From NCBI RefSeq assembly GCF_018622995.1, contig NZ_CP076022.1:3410001-3474000 (forward strand): a DNA stretch of 64,000 nucleotides. Direction: 5' to 3'. Origin of the DNA: Arthrobacter jiangjiafuii (GTDB taxonomy: Bacteria > Actinomycetota > Actinomycetes > Actinomycetales > Micrococcaceae). Position numbers and translations under genes: made by a program. The number at the start of each line of letters is the position of its first letter. Position 1 is the first letter of the stretch. The notes beneath the pieces are model-generated. The model saw nothing but the letters and a program-made list of their open reading frames with translations. It made no database searches and was not told the origin of the DNA. Shown here piece after piece: positions 53,145 through 57,931 of the stretch.

Positions 53145-53705
53145 TTGAGTACCAAAGTACTGACCTTGGTCGGCAGCCTGCGGGCGGGCTCGGTTAACCG
53201 CCAGCTGGCCGAAACAGCGGCCCTGATTGCCCCGGAAGGTGTCGAGGTCGAGATTTTCGAGGGTCTCGGCAGGATTCCGTTCTACAACGAGGACATCGAC
53301 GTTGAGGGCTCGGTTCCCGAAGCCGCCGTCGCCCTGCGTGCCGCCGCGGCCGGCGCCGACGCCGTCCTGCTCGTGTGCCCGGAGTACAACGGGACCATGC
53401 CCGCCGTCCTGAAGAACGCCATTGACTGGCTCTCCCGCCCGTTCGGCACCAGCGCCATTTCCGGCACCCCCGCCGCCGTTATCGGCTCGGCCTTCGGCCA
53501 GTTCGGCGGAGTGTGGGCGCACGACGACGCGCGCAAGTCCCTGGGTATTGCCGGAGCCAGCGTGGTCGAGGACGTGCGGCTCTCCATCGGCGCCTCGGTG
53601 ACCCGCTTCGCCGAGATCCACCCGAAGGATGACGCCGAGGTCGTGGAACAGATCCGCACCGTGCTCGAGACGCTCGCCGACAGCTCGGCCGTCGCTGCGG
53701 CTTAG
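53145..53705 (+). CDS. NADPH-dependent FMN reductase family protein
   Basis: 186-residue flavodoxin-fold oxidoreductase. TTG start with AGGAG 6-7 nt upstream; reads TKVLTLVGSLRAGSVNRQLA (FMN-binding SLRAGSVNRQL), then LLVCPEYNGTMPAVLKNAID with the P-E-Y-N-G motif, and SAFGQFGGVWAHDDARKSL. Catalyses NAD(P)H-dependent reduction of flavins, quinones or azo compounds. Likely under control of the divergent TetR; homologous arrangements are typical of quinone/electrophile-responsive operons. Confidence 0.9.
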   Translation: MSTKVLTLVGSLRAGSVNRQLAETAALIAPEGVEVEIFEGLGRIPFYNEDIDVEGSVPEAAVALRAAAAGADAVLLVCPEYNGTMPAVLKNAIDWLSRPFGTSAISGTPAAVIGSAFGQFGGVWAHDDARKSLGIAGASVVEDVRLSIGASVTRFAEIHPKDDAEVVEQIRTVLETLADSSAVAAA

Positions 53706-53715
53706 CCTGCCCTGC

Positions 53716-53750
53716 ACTCTATTACTGCAGTGTCACTGCAGTAATAGAGT
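53716..53750. repeat. Perfect 35-bp palindrome with two ACTGCAGT cores
   Basis: Arms of 17 bp are exact reverse complements around a single T (left arm ACTCTATTACTGCAGTG, right arm CACTGCAGTAATAGAGT). Each arm contains the self-palindrome ACTGCAGT. It lies 10 nt after the reductase stop and 30 nt before a second hairpin terminator. May be a tandem operator or a termination hairpin with no T-run. Confidence 0.7.
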
Positions 53751-53779
53751 CAAGACAGTAAAGAAGGCCCAAACACAGC

Positions 53780-53825
53780 AAAGAGGGCGGACCCGCCTGC
53801 CGAGGCAACCGGGTCCGTCCTCTTT
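53780..53825. terminator. Bidirectional rho-independent terminator
   Basis: AAAGAGGGCGGACCCG (53780-53795) pairs with CGGGTCCGTCCTCTTT (53810-53825) except for one G-T position, with A/T-rich flanks on both sides. Ends the reductase transcript and the leftward 63-residue gene. Confidence 0.88.
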
Positions 53826-53895
53826 GTCGTTGTCTTCGGTTTGATGTTGTCTTCGGGCTGGTTCCGGGTCTGCGGCTAGCGCCAAGGCTCGGCAG

Positions 53896-54087
53896 CTAAT
53901 GCCAAAAGCCTCCGGCCCAGGCGGCATCCCGCAGGTAATCGCGGGCCGGGCCAACATTCCACAGCTCTCCGCGCGACTCGACGATGCCCATGTCCCGCAG
54001 GTCTTCCACCACATCCTCGGAGCACCCCAGGACTTCCGAAAGGTCCCGGGAGCTGGCTGCTACAACTACTTCGTCGCGGCTTGCCAC
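53896..54087 (-). CDS. 63-residue protein downstream of the thiopeptide-type enzyme
   Basis: GTG start 8 nt after AAAGGAGG, one of the strongest RBSs in the window, so translation is very likely. Acidic: MASRDEVVVAASSRDLSEVL, GCSEDVVEDLRDMGIVESRG, ELWNVGPARDYLRDAAWAGG and FWH. The middle (LSEVLGCSEDVVEDLRDMGI then VESRGELWNVGPARDYL) resembles a small excisionase-like HTH; alternatively the acidic body plus Trp/Gly-rich tail (AAWAGGFWH) looks like a leader-core peptide. It follows the SpaB_C gene by 73 nt on the same strand. Function not assigned. Confidence 0.7.
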   Translation of the reverse strand: MASRDEVVVAASSRDLSEVLGCSEDVVEDLRDMGIVESRGELWNVGPARDYLRDAAWAGGFWH

Positions 54088-54160
54088 AACGGCAGCCTCC
54101 TTTCAGTGGGTCCTGGGAATGTCATGCGGGTTCAGTATTTGGGTGCGTCCCAATGTGGCG

Positions 54161-55120
54161 TCAACGCCTGTCCAGGAGGAGGGCCTCCCGATCCGTACTC
54201 CAACTCCGCGCGTAGAGGCCCAGTGCCGCCTCTTCGCGCAGTGATAGTCCAAGCCGGTTCAGCAGCATGTGGGCCTGGTAGACCGTCAGGTGTTGTGCAC
54301 TGCGGCTTAGCCGCGCCTTGTCTGCCCGGTACAGGTAGGTGTCTATGGTCCGGAACCAGCGGCGGCGCCAGTTTTCCACCGCCGATTCTGCAGCCGTGGC
54401 CGCCATCAGCCGTTGGGTGGGTGCCACTTTGGCCGCAACCTGGACCGTCATGGCCTGCCGGACGCTTTCTGCCCGCGGACCGAAGCCCGCCGTGCAGCTG
54501 CGCAGGTGGCTGTCCCAGTAGTAATCCCAGGACACGCGCCGGCGGTCGGGCCAGCTGGCAGAGCGGGGCCCCCTCATCATGCTGCGCGCAGCGTCAAAAA
54601 GGAGCAGGGAACCCAGTGCCCACCGGTTTTGGACCTTGGGGAAGCGCGCCGTCGCCCAGGCCCCCAGTTCAGAGGAAAGCTCAAATACTTCCTCGGCCAG
54701 CGCGAGTCCCTCAACACCCCCGTACTTGGCCAGATCCGCTTCAACGCGGGAGCTGTGCTGCTCCATGCCTCCGGGTCCCATCCGGTCCGCGACCGGCTGG
54801 CTGAACTGATGCGTCACCTCCAGATGGCCGATGACGCCGGAGGCCTGCTCTTGCAGGGCCCCCAAGAGGGACTGGAGCCTCTCGATGATGTCGGGGGCGG
54901 CAAGCAGCCGCAGGCGCACGTGGGCATTTGCCGGCTCCGAGCACCGTGTGTAAAACCAGCGCTGGGCTCCCAACGCCTGGGCTTGTGCTGCCAGCGGGGT
55001 AACCAGCTCTCCAATGATGCCGTCCGCTACATCGAAGCCGCCCGTATATATCGAGAGTGTCCACCACTGTCCTGTTGAGTGAGTCCGCGAGGCGTTTCGA
55101 ACTGCTGTCAACTGACTCAT
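54161..55120 (-). CDS. Stand-alone thiopeptide-type (SpaB_C/Lant_dehydr_C) biosynthesis protein
   Basis: 319 residues. Begins near residue 18 with the family motif QWWTLSIYTGGFDVADGIIG followed by AQRWFYTRCSEPANAHVRLR, matching the TIGR03891/PF14028 domain normally found as the C-terminal elimination domain of lanthipeptide dehydratases, or as stand-alone pyridine synthases in thiopeptides. Later: DYYWDSHLRSCTAGFGPRAE, LSREEAALG-like end. No LanB N-terminal glutamylation domain or cyclase is in the window. Start ATG 55120 follows GGAGGGG. Likely acts on a tRNA- or peptide-bound substrate; partner peptide uncertain (see 55269 and 53896). Confidence 0.8.
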   Translation of the reverse strand: MSQLTAVRNASRTHSTGQWWTLSIYTGGFDVADGIIGELVTPLAAQAQALGAQRWFYTRCSEPANAHVRLRLLAAPDIIERLQSLLGALQEQASGVIGHLEVTHQFSQPVADRMGPGGMEQHSSRVEADLAKYGGVEGLALAEEVFELSSELGAWATARFPKVQNRWALGSLLLFDAARSMMRGPRSASWPDRRRVSWDYYWDSHLRSCTAGFGPRAESVRQAMTVQVAAKVAPTQRLMAATAAESAVENWRRRWFRTIDTYLYRADKARLSRSAQHLTVYQAHMLLNRLGLSLREEAALGLYARSWSTDREALLLDRR

Positions 55121-55195
55121 GGCGTGCTTCCCCTCCGGGGTCCGTGCTTGGTTACCGCCGCTGGCGGGACTAACTGTGTGTTCATCAATGCTGTT

Positions 55196-55245
55196 GACTT
55201 GTGTAGCTCGTCTGACTTGTGTAGCTCGTCTGACTGTGCAGCTCG
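55196..55245. repeat. 18-bp tandem repeat downstream of the 9-codon ORF
   Basis: GACTTGTGTAGCTCGTCT occurs twice without change (55196-55213, 55214-55231), then a degenerate third copy (55232-55245). On the minus strand it continues the frame of the short ORF beyond its TAG, encoding SYTSQT repeats. Confidence 0.75.
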
Positions 55246-55268
55246 CCGTTCCCCCTGCGGGGCGGTGG

Positions 55269-55298
55269 CTAGATCCAGTCCCAAACCTTGGTGGTCAT
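55269..55298 (-). CDS. Nine-codon ORF MTTKVWDWI with strong RBS (candidate peptide)
   Basis: ATG at 55298, TAG at 55269-55271; GAGGAGGGGGACTGAAC precedes the ATG, giving AGGAGG at a 10-nt spacer. It is 148 nt upstream of the SpaB_C gene on the same strand and divergent from the LuxR-type regulator. Two Trp codons in nine: either an ultra-short ribosomal peptide substrate, or a Trp-sensing leader followed by a GCCCCGCAGGGGG hairpin (55247-55262). The longer in-frame ORF to 55526 lacks composition typical of protein, so only the short version is proposed. Confidence 0.45.
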   Translation of the reverse strand: MTTKVWDWI

Positions 55299-55622
55299 GT
55301 TCAGTCCCCCTCCTCTGCCTGCGGCCCTGAAGCCTGGTGCGATTGATTGACTCCGAAAGCTTCCCCCGCTGCGCAAGCCTTCGTCTACCCTTTCGGATGC
55401 CCTGTTGCTGACATGGCCTGTTCCGCCCCCGGGGGGCGCGCCGGGCAAGGGCCCGGGTTCCGCGGAACTGCCCGGATCCCCGCGAAATATGGCGTGCGCA
55501 TGGCCTGATGGCGGCGGCTGGGGCATAGTGTCATTAAGCGGCCATGTCAGCTAGTCCCGGGCCGCCGGTTCCGGCTGATGCCGGCAGCAGAAGTTCCTGC
55601 TTAAGTCTCGAAAGGAGCGGTG

Positions 55623-56591
55623 GTGTTGGACCAGTCCTCCCTGGCCGTTTACCGGTACGCAGTCAGCCATCCCGGATGGACGGTCTCCGACGCGTCCGAG
55701 GCACTTGGCCTCACCACCCGGTCCCTTCAAAAAGCTATTGCCCAGTTGACCGAACGCTGCTTATTGGTTCCGGCCGGCGGGGATCTGGCGGGCTACACCG
55801 CGGTGTCCCCCGACGTCGCCCTCGCCGAGCTCGTCGACCCGGATGAGCGTGCCCTCCTGGATCTGCGCTCCCGCATCGGCGCCAAGAGACGTGAACTGGC
55901 CGGCCTGATTCCGACCTTTGCCGCAGCCAGCCGGCAGGCCTCCACGGATTCGGCGGTGGAGGTGCTGGAGGACCCTGACCGGGTGATGCGGGTCCTGATT
56001 GAATACGCACGCTCTGCTTCCGAATGCGTCCTGATGTCCCGTCCCGGCCCCGGGGCGAACGCTGACACCCAGGAGGAAAGCGTCCAGAAGGACATCGACC
56101 TGCTGCGGCAGGGGGTCCAGCGCCGCACCCTCTACCACGCCAGCATCCGGGACCATGTGCCCACCCGCCGGGCCGTGGAGGCCGTCACCGCCGCCGGCGG
56201 TGAATTCCGCACGCTGCCCCATATGCCCCTGCGCACCGTGATCTTCGACGGCAAGGTTGCGGTTATCCCGCGGGGGCGCACCCCTGACGACCGGGCCGGG
56301 CTGGTCATCCGCGATCCCAACCTGGTCCAGATCTTCGTGCGCATGTTCGACTTTGCCTGGGAGCTCGGGGAGCCCTTCCTGGCCGAGGAACCGCAGTCCA
56401 ACCAGTTGACCAGCACGCAGCGGTCCATCCTGCGCGCCCTGGCCGCCGGAAATCCGGACGACGTCATTGCCCGCCGGCTGGGAATCAGCGTGCGGACCTG
56501 CCGCCGGCACATCGCCAAGATGCTGGAGGACCTGGGGGCCGAGAGCCGGTTCCAGGCCGGTATCAAGGCTCACCGCGCCGGGTGGATTTAG
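55623..56591 (+). CDS. TrmB-like/LuxR-type transcriptional regulator
   Basis: 322 residues. N-terminal winged helix (residues 1-50: LAVYRYAVSHPGWTVSDASE, ALGLTTRSLQKAIAQL), central PLD/TrmB-like effector region (LRQGVQRRTLYHASIRDHVP, FDGKVAVIPRGRTPDDRAGL) and C-terminal LuxR HTH near 265-315 (TSTQRSILRALAAGNPDDVI then ARRLGISVRTCRRHIAKMLE). This design regulates many actinobacterial peptide loci. Start is ambiguous: GTG 55620, GTG 55623 or TTG 55626 after AAAGGAG; GTG 55623 gives a 5-nt spacer. Divergent from the short ORF and the SpaB_C gene, the likely targets. Confidence 0.85.
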   Translation: MLDQSSLAVYRYAVSHPGWTVSDASEALGLTTRSLQKAIAQLTERCLLVPAGGDLAGYTAVSPDVALAELVDPDERALLDLRSRIGAKRRELAGLIPTFAAASRQASTDSAVEVLEDPDRVMRVLIEYARSASECVLMSRPGPGANADTQEESVQKDIDLLRQGVQRRTLYHASIRDHVPTRRAVEAVTAAGGEFRTLPHMPLRTVIFDGKVAVIPRGRTPDDRAGLVIRDPNLVQIFVRMFDFAWELGEPFLAEEPQSNQLTSTQRSILRALAAGNPDDVIARRLGISVRTCRRHIAKMLEDLGAESRFQAGIKAHRAGWI

Positions 56592-56638
56592 ACAACATTC
56601 GTTGCCTACTGGTGAATACACCGGGCTAGGATGTGGAC

Positions 56639-57931
56639 ATGACTTTCGAGGAGAACTCCGCTGACATCCTGCACGCGGACACCCAGACCGCGCTTGACCG
56701 GGCTGCTGCCTCCACGCACCGGCACGAGGCCCTGTTCTCGGACCGGGCCTTCCACATCAAGCAGTCGGCCGTGCGGGACGTCTTCGACATTTCCATCCGG
56801 CCGGGGCTGGTGTCCCTCGCCGGGGGCAGCCCCTACCTGCGGTCCCTTCCGCTGGCGGACCTGGGCGAGACGGTGCGGCGGATCGTGGCGGAGCAGGGGC
56901 TGGAATCCCTGCAGTACGGAGCCGGCCAGGGCACTGAGGAGCTGCGGCGCCAGGCGTGCGAGGTCATGGCTGCGGAGGGAATCACCGACGCCGATCCGGC
57001 CGACATTGTCATCACCACCGGCTCGCAGTCAGCCCAGGACGTCGCGGCCAAGGTGTTCTGCAACCCCGGCGACGTGGTGCTGTGCGAGGACCCCACCTAC
57101 GTGGGGGCGCTGAACGCCTTTGAGGCCTACGAAGTGGAACTCCAGCCGGTGCCGATGGACGCAGACGGGCTGGTTCCCGAGGCGTTGGAAGCATGCATCG
57201 CCACCCTGCGGGAGCAGGGCAAGTCCATCAAGATGCTCTATACGATCCCCAGCTTCAACAACCCCAGCGGCATCACCCTCGCTGCCGGGCGCCGGCAGCG
57301 GATCGTGGATATCTGCAAGGCTGCCAACATCCTGATCCTGGAGGACAACCCCTACGGGATGCTGCGCTTTGACGGCATGCCGCTGACGCCGCTGCGCGCC
57401 GGGAATCCGGACGACGTGCTGTACCTGGGCTCCTTCTCCAAGATCTTCGCTCCCGGCGTCCGTGTGGGCTGGGCACTGGTGCCCCGGCACCTGCACCGGC
57501 GCTTTTACCTGGCCTGCGAAGCGGTGGTGCTCTGCCCATCCCCGCTGTCCCAGATGCTGGTCTCCGCCTACCTGCGCGACTATGACTGGATGGAGCACAT
57601 CCGCGCCTCGCGCCTGTTGTACGCCGCGCGCTGCGCTTCGATGCTGGCCGCGCTCACCGAGCACCTGCCCGACGGCGTGAGCTGGACGGTGCCCGACGGC
57701 GGCTTTTTTGTCTGGCTCAGCCTGCCCGAGGGCCTCGATACCTATCCGCTGCTGTACGAGGCAATCGACGCCGGAGTGGTGTTCATCCCGGGCGCCGCCT
57801 TCACGCCGTCGGACGAGCCGTCAAACAAGCTGCGCCTGGCGTTCAGTGCCGTCCCCGAAGAGGACATCACCGAAGGGGTGCGCAGGCTCGCTCCCGTGCT
57901 GCGCCGGGCCGTGGACGCCGCCGGACACTGA
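56639..57931 (+). CDS. PLP-dependent aminotransferase (LysN/2-aminoadipate type)
   Basis: 430 residues, fold type I class I/II. Landmarks: LVSLAGGSPYLRSLPLADLG, LQYGAGQGTEELRRQACEVM, VITTGSQSAQDVAAKVFCNP, YTIPSFNNPSGITLAAGRRQ, PLP lysine in YLGSFSKIFAPGVRVGW. ATG at 56639; the GTG at 56633 is an alternative. No DNA-binding MocR domain is attached. Substrate probably a branched or alpha-amino acid. Starts 48 nt after the LuxR-type gene and may share regulation, but its enzymatic role need not involve the peptide locus. Confidence 0.9.
   Translation: MTFEENSADILHADTQTALDRAAASTHRHEALFSDRAFHIKQSAVRDVFDISIRPGLVSLAGGSPYLRSLPLADLGETVRRIVAEQGLESLQYGAGQGTEELRRQACEVMAAEGITDADPADIVITTGSQSAQDVAAKVFCNPGDVVLCEDPTYVGALNAFEAYEVELQPVPMDADGLVPEALEACIATLREQGKSIKMLYTIPSFNNPSGITLAAGRRQRIVDICKAANILILEDNPYGMLRFDGMPLTPLRAGNPDDVLYLGSFSKIFAPGVRVGWALVPRHLHRRFYLACEAVVLCPSPLSQMLVSAYLRDYDWMEHIRASRLLYAARCASMLAALTEHLPDGVSWTVPDGGFFVWLSLPEGLDTYPLLYEAIDAGVVFIPGAAFTPSDEPSNKLRLAFSAVPEEDITEGVRRLAPVLRRAVDAAGH

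Follow-up and report, generated by a model that had tools for sequence, protein, structure and literature searches.

In a 64,000 nt stretch of the Arthrobacter jiangjiafuii genome (assembly GCF_018622995.1, contig NZ_CP076022.1, positions 3,410,001 to 3,474,000 of the forward strand), called here the window, we have analyzed a locus with a nine-codon gene for the peptide MTTKVWDWI, a stand-alone SpaB_C enzyme, a 63 amino acid protein and a divergent regulator. These genes form a conserved unit with a conserved operator-like motif. Relatives have a longer form of the tiny gene, and a wider link between this type of regulator and tryptophan (Trp) peptides is also found. A small-peptide product or signal, as proposed in the initial annotation, is retained as the best reading. 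The features of the locus are the following (coordinates of the window):

55620..56591, plus strand: divergent regulator gene, with a TrmB-type winged helix, a PLD-like middle domain and a LuxR helix-turn-helix (HTH)
55529..55549, minus strand: operator-like motif A, TGACATGGCCGCTTAATGACA, kept in all unit loci
55395..55418, minus strand: operator-like motif B, GGCCATGTCAGCAACAGGGCATCC, of the pattern CATGTCMNSAAYNGGNCA
55306..55315, minus strand: Shine-Dalgarno-like sequence GAGGAGGGGG of the tiny gene, a G-rich ribosome-site motif with like spacing in orthologues
55269..55298, minus strand: ultra-short gene of nine codons (MTTKVWDWI-stop), a putative precursor gene with its ATG behind GAGGAGGGGG
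55247..55264, minus strand: small G+C hairpin directly past the stop of the tiny gene (weak folding signal)
55150..55173, minus strand: conserved element of the type CCCGCC(CC)AGCGG(C/G)GGTAACC before the enzyme start (intergenic 9-mer count)
54161..55120, minus strand: stand-alone SpaB_C / Lant_dehydr_C enzyme of 319 amino acids (PF14028 profile)
53896..54087, minus strand: acidic protein of 63 amino acids with a conserved C-terminus, ending YLRDAAWAGGFWH
53779..53826: second inverted repeat, 23 nt, 87% complementary
53716..53750: perfect 17-nt inverted repeat 3' of the 63 amino acid gene, shared with a convergent FMN-reductase gene

From the regulator, the order on the minus strand is motif A, motif B, ribosome site, tiny open reading frame (ORF), enzyme, 63 amino acid gene and the two inverted repeats. 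The stop of the tiny ORF lies 148 nt before the enzyme start, and 73 nt separate the enzyme stop from the start of the next gene, which is placed behind AGGAGG. The four genes lie where the initial annotation had placed them. The proposal made at that time depended on the short ORF, the enzyme, the 63-residue gene and the regulator being conserved together. They are, although other genes separate enzyme and regulator in five genomes of the genus.

We have compared three sets of loci. The genus set contains 29 genomes, including that of the window, among them A. gandavensis, A. citreus, A. koreensis and A. luteolus. The 80 unit loci (L001-L027, L030, L038 and L073-L123) correspond to 68 distinct records, as 12 named short-form loci repeat genus genomes. 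The orphan set contains 32 enzyme copies outside units.

An ATG ORF ending in K[VS]W[DE]W[FIL]-stop is present in all 29 orthologous loci of the genus, with its stop 88-148 nt ahead of the enzyme. The endings found are KVWDWI, KVWDWL, KSWDWF and KSWEWF, and in 11 of the 29 genomes the whole peptide is MKSWDWF. Among 27 distinct sequences, conservation reaches 1.51 bits per column over the last nine codons, compared with 0.53 upstream and 0.51 downstream. In the same sequences, the changes inside the motif are either synonymous, or from Asp to Glu, or from Val to Ser before the first Trp, or between Ile, Leu and Phe at the end. A W-x-W frame within 300 nt before the enzyme is found in 80/80 unit loci and in 3/32 orphan copies. 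The tiny ORF is thus real in the sense of selection, with conservation confined to its codons, and it is probably translated. The initial annotation had found no recognisable precursor, and it is the ultra-short ORF itself which now appears as a precursor-like gene.

Short-form genes in the clade of the window have 7-17 codons (22 with an upstream ATG in L014). Only for the window does our start rule choose an upstream TTG, 26 codons away, and the conserved start is the ATG beside the ribosome site. Two longer readings, of 35 amino acids from this TTG and of 85 amino acids from an ATG at 55526, have been rejected, because conservation does not extend upstream of the core and the start common to the orthologues is the ATG that follows the ribosome site. 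We have also rejected an RNA element: the z value of the leader fold is -0.65, and no Rfam family is detected in 53600-56700. A search of seven peptides (five of them precursor-like) against NCBIfam gave no match, except for one below threshold (E 0.11).

Among L073-L123, where the regulator is the divergent partner of the enzyme, all 51 loci which have both of these genes contain a W-x-W peptide: 12 are short and 39 longer (L071 and L072, with a regulator but no enzyme within 6 kb, are excluded from this count). The longer genes are found at the same place in 39 Micrococcaceae-type loci (L083-L121), and 38 of them are secretory-looking, a term which refers here to a simple hydrophobicity rule and not to a dedicated signal-peptide predictor. 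The exception is L085, which has a short MNKIVGA start followed by three cores. The core is present once in 19 of these genes, twice in 16, three times in two and four times in one. An example of a longer precursor is MKKVLGATAGLLILVGAVVPAGQSVSAASWDWPKSQPTASSWDWPK, from L100. VWDWPQQ is repeated four times in L031 and six times in L032, and copies of NWEWPK are found in L086, L088 and L091. Other genes have a single AAWDW or AIWDWKN end (L110-L113 and L116) or WGW (L114). In a few loci (L030, L038/L077, L084, L088 and L099) the enzyme gene is frame-split, through true decay or perhaps a sequencing error, and the peptide ORF is intact. One of these, L099, is a contig deposited as Vibrio cholerae 35D which bears the Arthrobacter unit; it is surely Arthrobacter DNA, an assembly contamination.

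The short form belongs to one clade. In a tree of 108 enzymes, a single change explains it (support 95/92, 96% of bootstrap trees); this tree and the set A4, of 51 rows, were both chosen by hand. LanB-type relatives are placed among the half of the tree with long precursors, which fits a derived short form and does not prove it, since the root is a midpoint root and there are long branches, of whose meeting the program warned. The nine-codon gene would seem to be what is left of an exported Trp peptide after shrinkage. The locus, first described as a minimal one standing on its own, has rather the look of a reduced member of a broader family.

Motif A, TGMCATGDCMNSTTAATGMCA, is present upstream of the enzyme with four mismatches or fewer in 80/80 unit loci, and the best sites of the 32 orphan copies have at least six. 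The whole genome has a single exact site, at the locus, and two more with three mismatches, against one for the reversed control. Motif B shows lower specificity: with up to two mismatches it is found in 59/80 unit loci and 0/32 orphans, with up to four in 80/80 and 12/32 (motif B was counted across the fetched loci, motif A genome-wide). To judge from sequence, both motifs are candidate binding sites of the regulator. This protein has a Pfam LuxR HTH, and its structure model (pLDDT 90.2, pTM 0.52) matches TrmBL2 (Foldseek E 1.8e-14), PLD proteins and LuxR-type proteins. A 9-mer, CCCCAGCGG, is found on either strand in 34/52 intergenic regions; the window has a variant of it (CCCGCCCCAGCGGGGGTAACC-like) near the enzyme start.

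The link between regulator and peptide extends beyond Arthrobacter. A first distant set has 27 regulator loci (L124-L150), with a SpaB_C gene as well in L125, L130 and L131. Our first rule, a secretory-looking ORF of 35-110 amino acids with a late [TVWD][DEG]W, is matched in 10 of these loci (118 kb). There are two matches in 372 kb of background, one of which (L156) is a peptide beside a SpaB_C gene. For example, GGVDW is present three times before a serine hydroxymethyltransferase (SHMT)-type gene in L128 and L129, GGGGTDW is found before the same type of gene in L133 and L135, and copies of DTGW lie near a ThiF protein in L136. The enzyme beside the peptide varies, it may be of SpaB_C, ThiF or SHMT type.

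A second sample was drawn from 394 genomes, with the rule D-x(0-2)-W for secretory-looking ORFs. This motif was fixed, without a written note, before the fresh loci were scanned. The fresh set contains the next 40 regulator matches in list order (G417:C19, which adjoins a training locus, was dropped), and many of them come from genomes that also supplied training loci. The rule is matched in 9/28 training loci, in 12/40 fresh loci (164 kb) and in none of 20 control stretches of 12 kb (243 kb), taken from part of the same genomes. According to the coordinates, the peptide is divergent from the regulator in 10 of the 12 fresh matches. The core is repeated in eight of them (L233, L236, L244, L252, L253, L258, L259 and L263), with five copies of DSGW in L252 and L258. 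Similar Trp-ended ORFs are found in loci which the rule misses (L231, L237, L239, L242, L247 and L249). In five Streptomyces loci (L132, L137, L143, L149 and L150), a gene for a DTEW peptide lies close to one or two others that code for secretory-looking proteins of about 175 amino acids, some with a Trp-rich tail.

The enzyme matches PF14028 with 79.1 bits (cut-off 24.4) and TIGR03891 with 60 bits (cut-off 48.45). Its structure model (pLDDT 90.5, pTM 0.88) has 19 Foldseek matches with E values of 0.001 or less: MibB, MadB, NisB, TbtD, PbtD, TsrL and aza-cyclase chains. Its nearest folds are LanB elimination domains and pyridine synthases. In a profile search of the PDB, the best match is MibB (2.9e-06), and NisB is not significant. 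The initial annotation had noted the absence of a LanB glutamylation domain, and in agreement with this we find no match to the LanB N-domain (Lant_dehydr_N) in any of the 29 genus genomes, nor in G059 and G053, which have a long-precursor unit. The same search was positive in 4/7 chosen genomes (two over the cut-off) and in 0/14 named control genomes, so the genus result alone is no proof of absence.

The arginines of HxRxR-type motifs serve glutamate elimination in NisB. This motif, which aligns with MibB, is intact in the nine relatives grouped as LanB-partnered; the partner was identified by Pfam for L045, L046/L131, L125 and L186 (the same as L152), is below the cut-off for the L156 genome, and for L048 and L153-L155 was assumed on the basis of neighbouring genes. 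Among 31 unit enzymes the H is kept in 12, the first R in 17 and the second R in 11. Seven other residues (H205, E127, E147, R252, D260, Y262 and R273) are invariant in all 31, and three of them (R252, Y262 and R273) are variable in the LanB-partnered group. Some loci have cores without Ser, Thr or Cys, such as VWDWPQQ, AAWDW and NWEWPK. The window peptide has two Thr and MKSWDWF one Ser, and the peptides of the genus have no Cys. As several cores lack all three residues, the known dehydration and cycloaddition chemistry is unlikely to be the common reaction. The analogy first drawn with enzymes acting on dehydrated or tRNA-activated peptides is not supported, given such cores, the eroded HxRxR and the lack of a LanB N-domain match. 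The SpaB_C protein might carry out a new reaction or simply bind the peptide.

Orphan SpaB_C genes have expanded in the genus, with up to six extra SpaB_C matches per genome, about 42-64% identical and some of them fragments; four of the 29 genomes have none. The extra copies we have fetched (L037 and L049-L070) lack the peptide, the regulator and the 63 amino acid gene, and one group of them shares the start context TTTTTGGGGATGANATG. We have considered these orphan copies as further peptide units and rejected this possibility: by eye, the upstream alignments of four groups show no common tiny ORF, and the W-x-W frame has the low count given above. In an actinobacterial family (L186-L190), a SpaB_C gene is accompanied by a secretory-looking peptide ending in DMWG, NDKWI or DEWI. 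L186 and L188 have a SARP-like regulator by eye, and PqqD-M50 and Lant_dehydr_N were profiled in L186 only. This looks like a separate type of cluster for ribosomally synthesized and post-translationally modified peptides (RiPPs).

The 63 amino acid protein has no Pfam or NCBIfam match. Its C-terminal RDA(A/V)WAxxxW is kept, and the rest, including the N-terminus, varies between sub-lineages. A search by pattern finds the gene after 90/131 enzymes and after none of the 32 orphans; the pattern missed L010 (a BLAST match), L089 and L109.

The explanation we favour, with about an even chance of being right, is a self-contained peptide-signal circuit whose precursor has shrunk to a few codons. The nine-codon gene would encode a Trp-Asp-Trp peptide, which the SpaB_C-fold protein would bind and probably alter. 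The TrmB/PLD/LuxR regulator would sense the product and control two divergent promoters through the conserved operator, and the 63 amino acid protein, with its fixed C-terminus, might be an accessory or a second substrate. The ancestral peptide would have been exported through its secretory signal, and one or more copies of the core would have been set free, in the manner of a pheromone. In the clade of the window the signal peptide would have been lost, leaving the start codon and the core. A transporter encoded elsewhere might carry such a leaderless peptide out of the cell, or the peptide might act internally if the outside step was lost. Translation of the tiny ORF, signalling, export, sensing and DNA binding by the regulator and enzymatic alteration of the peptide are what we infer from these comparisons. 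More generally, and with a confidence somewhat short of even, we propose a widespread actinobacterial peptide signalling system: a TrmB/PLD/LuxR receptor, mostly divergent from an exported peptide with one to six Trp cores (DSGW, DTGW, GFDWG, DLPWT, VIGWD or WDW), and an enzyme which varies with the lineage (SpaB_C, ThiF or pyridoxal phosphate (PLP) type), with the Arthrobacter gene as a shrunken form.

Several observations weigh against this explanation. Many genomes of the genus have additional enzyme copies without peptide or regulator, so the SpaB_C fold also serves other purposes. The regulator is about 9 kb away from the enzyme in five genomes of the genus (L180-L183 and L185); the tiny ORF stays with the enzyme, and by eye the genes in between resemble a carbohydrate operon. 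No sigma-70-like promoter was found at the locus. Among the distant loci, 28/40 fresh and 19/28 training loci have no match to the rule, which means that the rule misses many peptides or that the pairing is not universal. The regulator profile also picks up ordinary LuxR proteins (363/394 genomes), and the peptide gene is downstream of the regulator, not divergent from it, in Winogradskya, Saccharopolyspora and Goodfellowiella. Secretory-looking ORFs of any kind are also scarcer in the controls, 11 in 243 kb compared with 25 in 164 kb. Finally, the window peptide has no export signal and there is no transporter among the six genes profiled, so cell-to-cell signalling is least secure at the window locus itself. 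Export of the leaderless peptide is the weakest joint of the model.

The alternative which survives best, rather unlikely in our opinion, is a RiPP pathway in which the modified peptide is a metabolite (an antibiotic, a metallophore or a toxin against competitors) and the regulator is simply one that belongs to this pathway. It agrees with the SpaB_C fold, with the order of precursor and enzyme and with the unique operator-like motif. Among relatives outside units there are split-LanB clusters, with Lant_dehydr_N in L045, L046, L125 and L186 and PqqD-M50 in L045 and L186 (in L045, PqqD scores under the cut-off), and in L186-L190 the same type of enzyme lies near the Trp-containing peptides described above. 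Nevertheless, no transporter, protease or immunity gene is found among the genes profiled, the core hardly varies across the genus, and the link between peptide and regulator is also present at loci without a SpaB_C gene.

It is improbable that the real substrate of the enzyme is the 63 amino acid protein, with the WDW peptide acting on the regulator only. The kept C-terminus and variable N-terminus would fit a substrate, as would the position of the gene behind the enzyme and its absence from every orphan, but orphan enzymes exist without this gene and LanB-type relatives show only a look-alike, AWASQLW, in L125. We give even less credit to a regulatory leader, where pausing at Trp codons or an arrest peptide would set the expression of the enzyme. 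A very short ORF in which a single codon separates two Trp codons, its distance from the enzyme and a small hairpin right past the stop in many loci recall such leaders. In other Arthrobacter, however, the orthologous genes are for secretory-looking precursors in which the core occurs as many as six times, and the Asp/Glu and Ile/Leu/Phe exchanges suggest a constraint on amino acids rather than on codons. The hairpin signal is weak (median z -1.46 against mononucleotide shuffles in 73 loci, 27 of them below -1.65, with -0.2 in the window), and there is no terminator-like site between the tiny gene and the enzyme, where a Trp attenuator has a terminator with a U-run after its leader ORF. Finally, the SpaB_C protein might have ceased to be an enzyme and serve the circuit as a peptide-binding carrier or antagonist, as the erosion of HxRxR in unit enzymes but not in LanB-partnered ones might suggest. 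This is highly improbable, as a mere scaffold would seem to require fewer residues than those invariant in all 31 unit enzymes.

The unit was initially described as bounded by terminators. This may be true at most on one side, where the two inverted repeats lie past the 63 amino acid gene; no inverted repeat was found past the regulator (56560-56660). A terminator scan of 53600-56800 detected only one site, inside the regulator gene, which is within chance expectation. A PLP aminotransferase gene (56633-57931) starts about 42 nt past the regulator on the same strand and may be cotranscribed with it; it also adjoins the regulator in L180-L183 and L185. Overall, what was first observed at this locus is confirmed, and its interpretation is supported in part.

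The unit may be compared with several known systems. The C-terminal elimination domains of LanB proteins (NisB, MibB and MadB) share the Pfam family and the fold of the enzyme. They differ in that here no N-terminal glutamylation domain was found in the 29 genus genomes, HxRxR is eroded and several cores lack Ser, Thr and Cys. Thiopeptide pyridine synthases, or [4+2] aza-cyclases (TbtD and PbtD), and TsrL are likewise stand-alone proteins of about 300-370 amino acids with the same fold, but here there is no Cys/Ser-rich core (it has no Cys) and in the genus the peptide has only a few residues. The split-LanB clusters of Paeniglutamicibacter, Zimmermannella and a further family (L045, L046/L131, L125 and L186-L190) have enzymes placed on the same tree, and L125 and L131 also have a TrmB/LuxR-type regulator; they differ in the Lant_dehydr_N protein of the profiled clusters (L045, L046, L125 and L186), and we have seen no WDW peptide in them. 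The regulator shares a winged helix and a PLD-like domain with TrmB and TrmBL2, and differs in its additional C-terminal LuxR HTH and in the peptide gene beside it. RRNPP receptors are tetratricopeptide repeat proteins. In RRNPP and Rgg-SHP intracellular signalling, a short exported peptide acts with a cytoplasmic transcription regulator, the same logic which we propose for the unit, whose regulator has instead a TrmB-PLD-LuxR fold.

Biarylitide precursor genes, of 18 bp for five residues, are missed by annotation (PMC13417212), and are like the tiny ORF in being too short for it. Such ultra-short precursors are thus known, and size alone is not new. The biarylitide partner described there is a cytochrome P450 (PMC13417212), here it is a SpaB_C protein; none of the six proteins which we profiled, from the unit and its neighbours, is a P450 (the genome was not searched). 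Partner enzyme, type of regulator and breadth are what sets the unit apart from biarylitides. We have found no recognisable description of such a pairing of peptide and regulator, or of these cores, in the full-text literature searched, which lies mostly outside subscription papers.

Peptide signalling is well known in Firmicutes, while the best-known actinobacterial signals are butyrolactones; to our knowledge, peptide signalling has been little described in actinobacteria. If the recurring association of this regulator with secretory-looking Trp-core peptides is true, it would provide many directly testable pairs of ligand and receptor. It would also mean that a SpaB_C protein has a substrate to which, in several lineages, the known dehydration chemistry cannot apply, and that a precursor gene can shrink below the size reported by gene finders. 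The pairing of a Trp peptide with a regulator and an enzyme of modifying type, which recurs in other actinobacteria, may represent a kind of signalling not yet recognised in bacteria.

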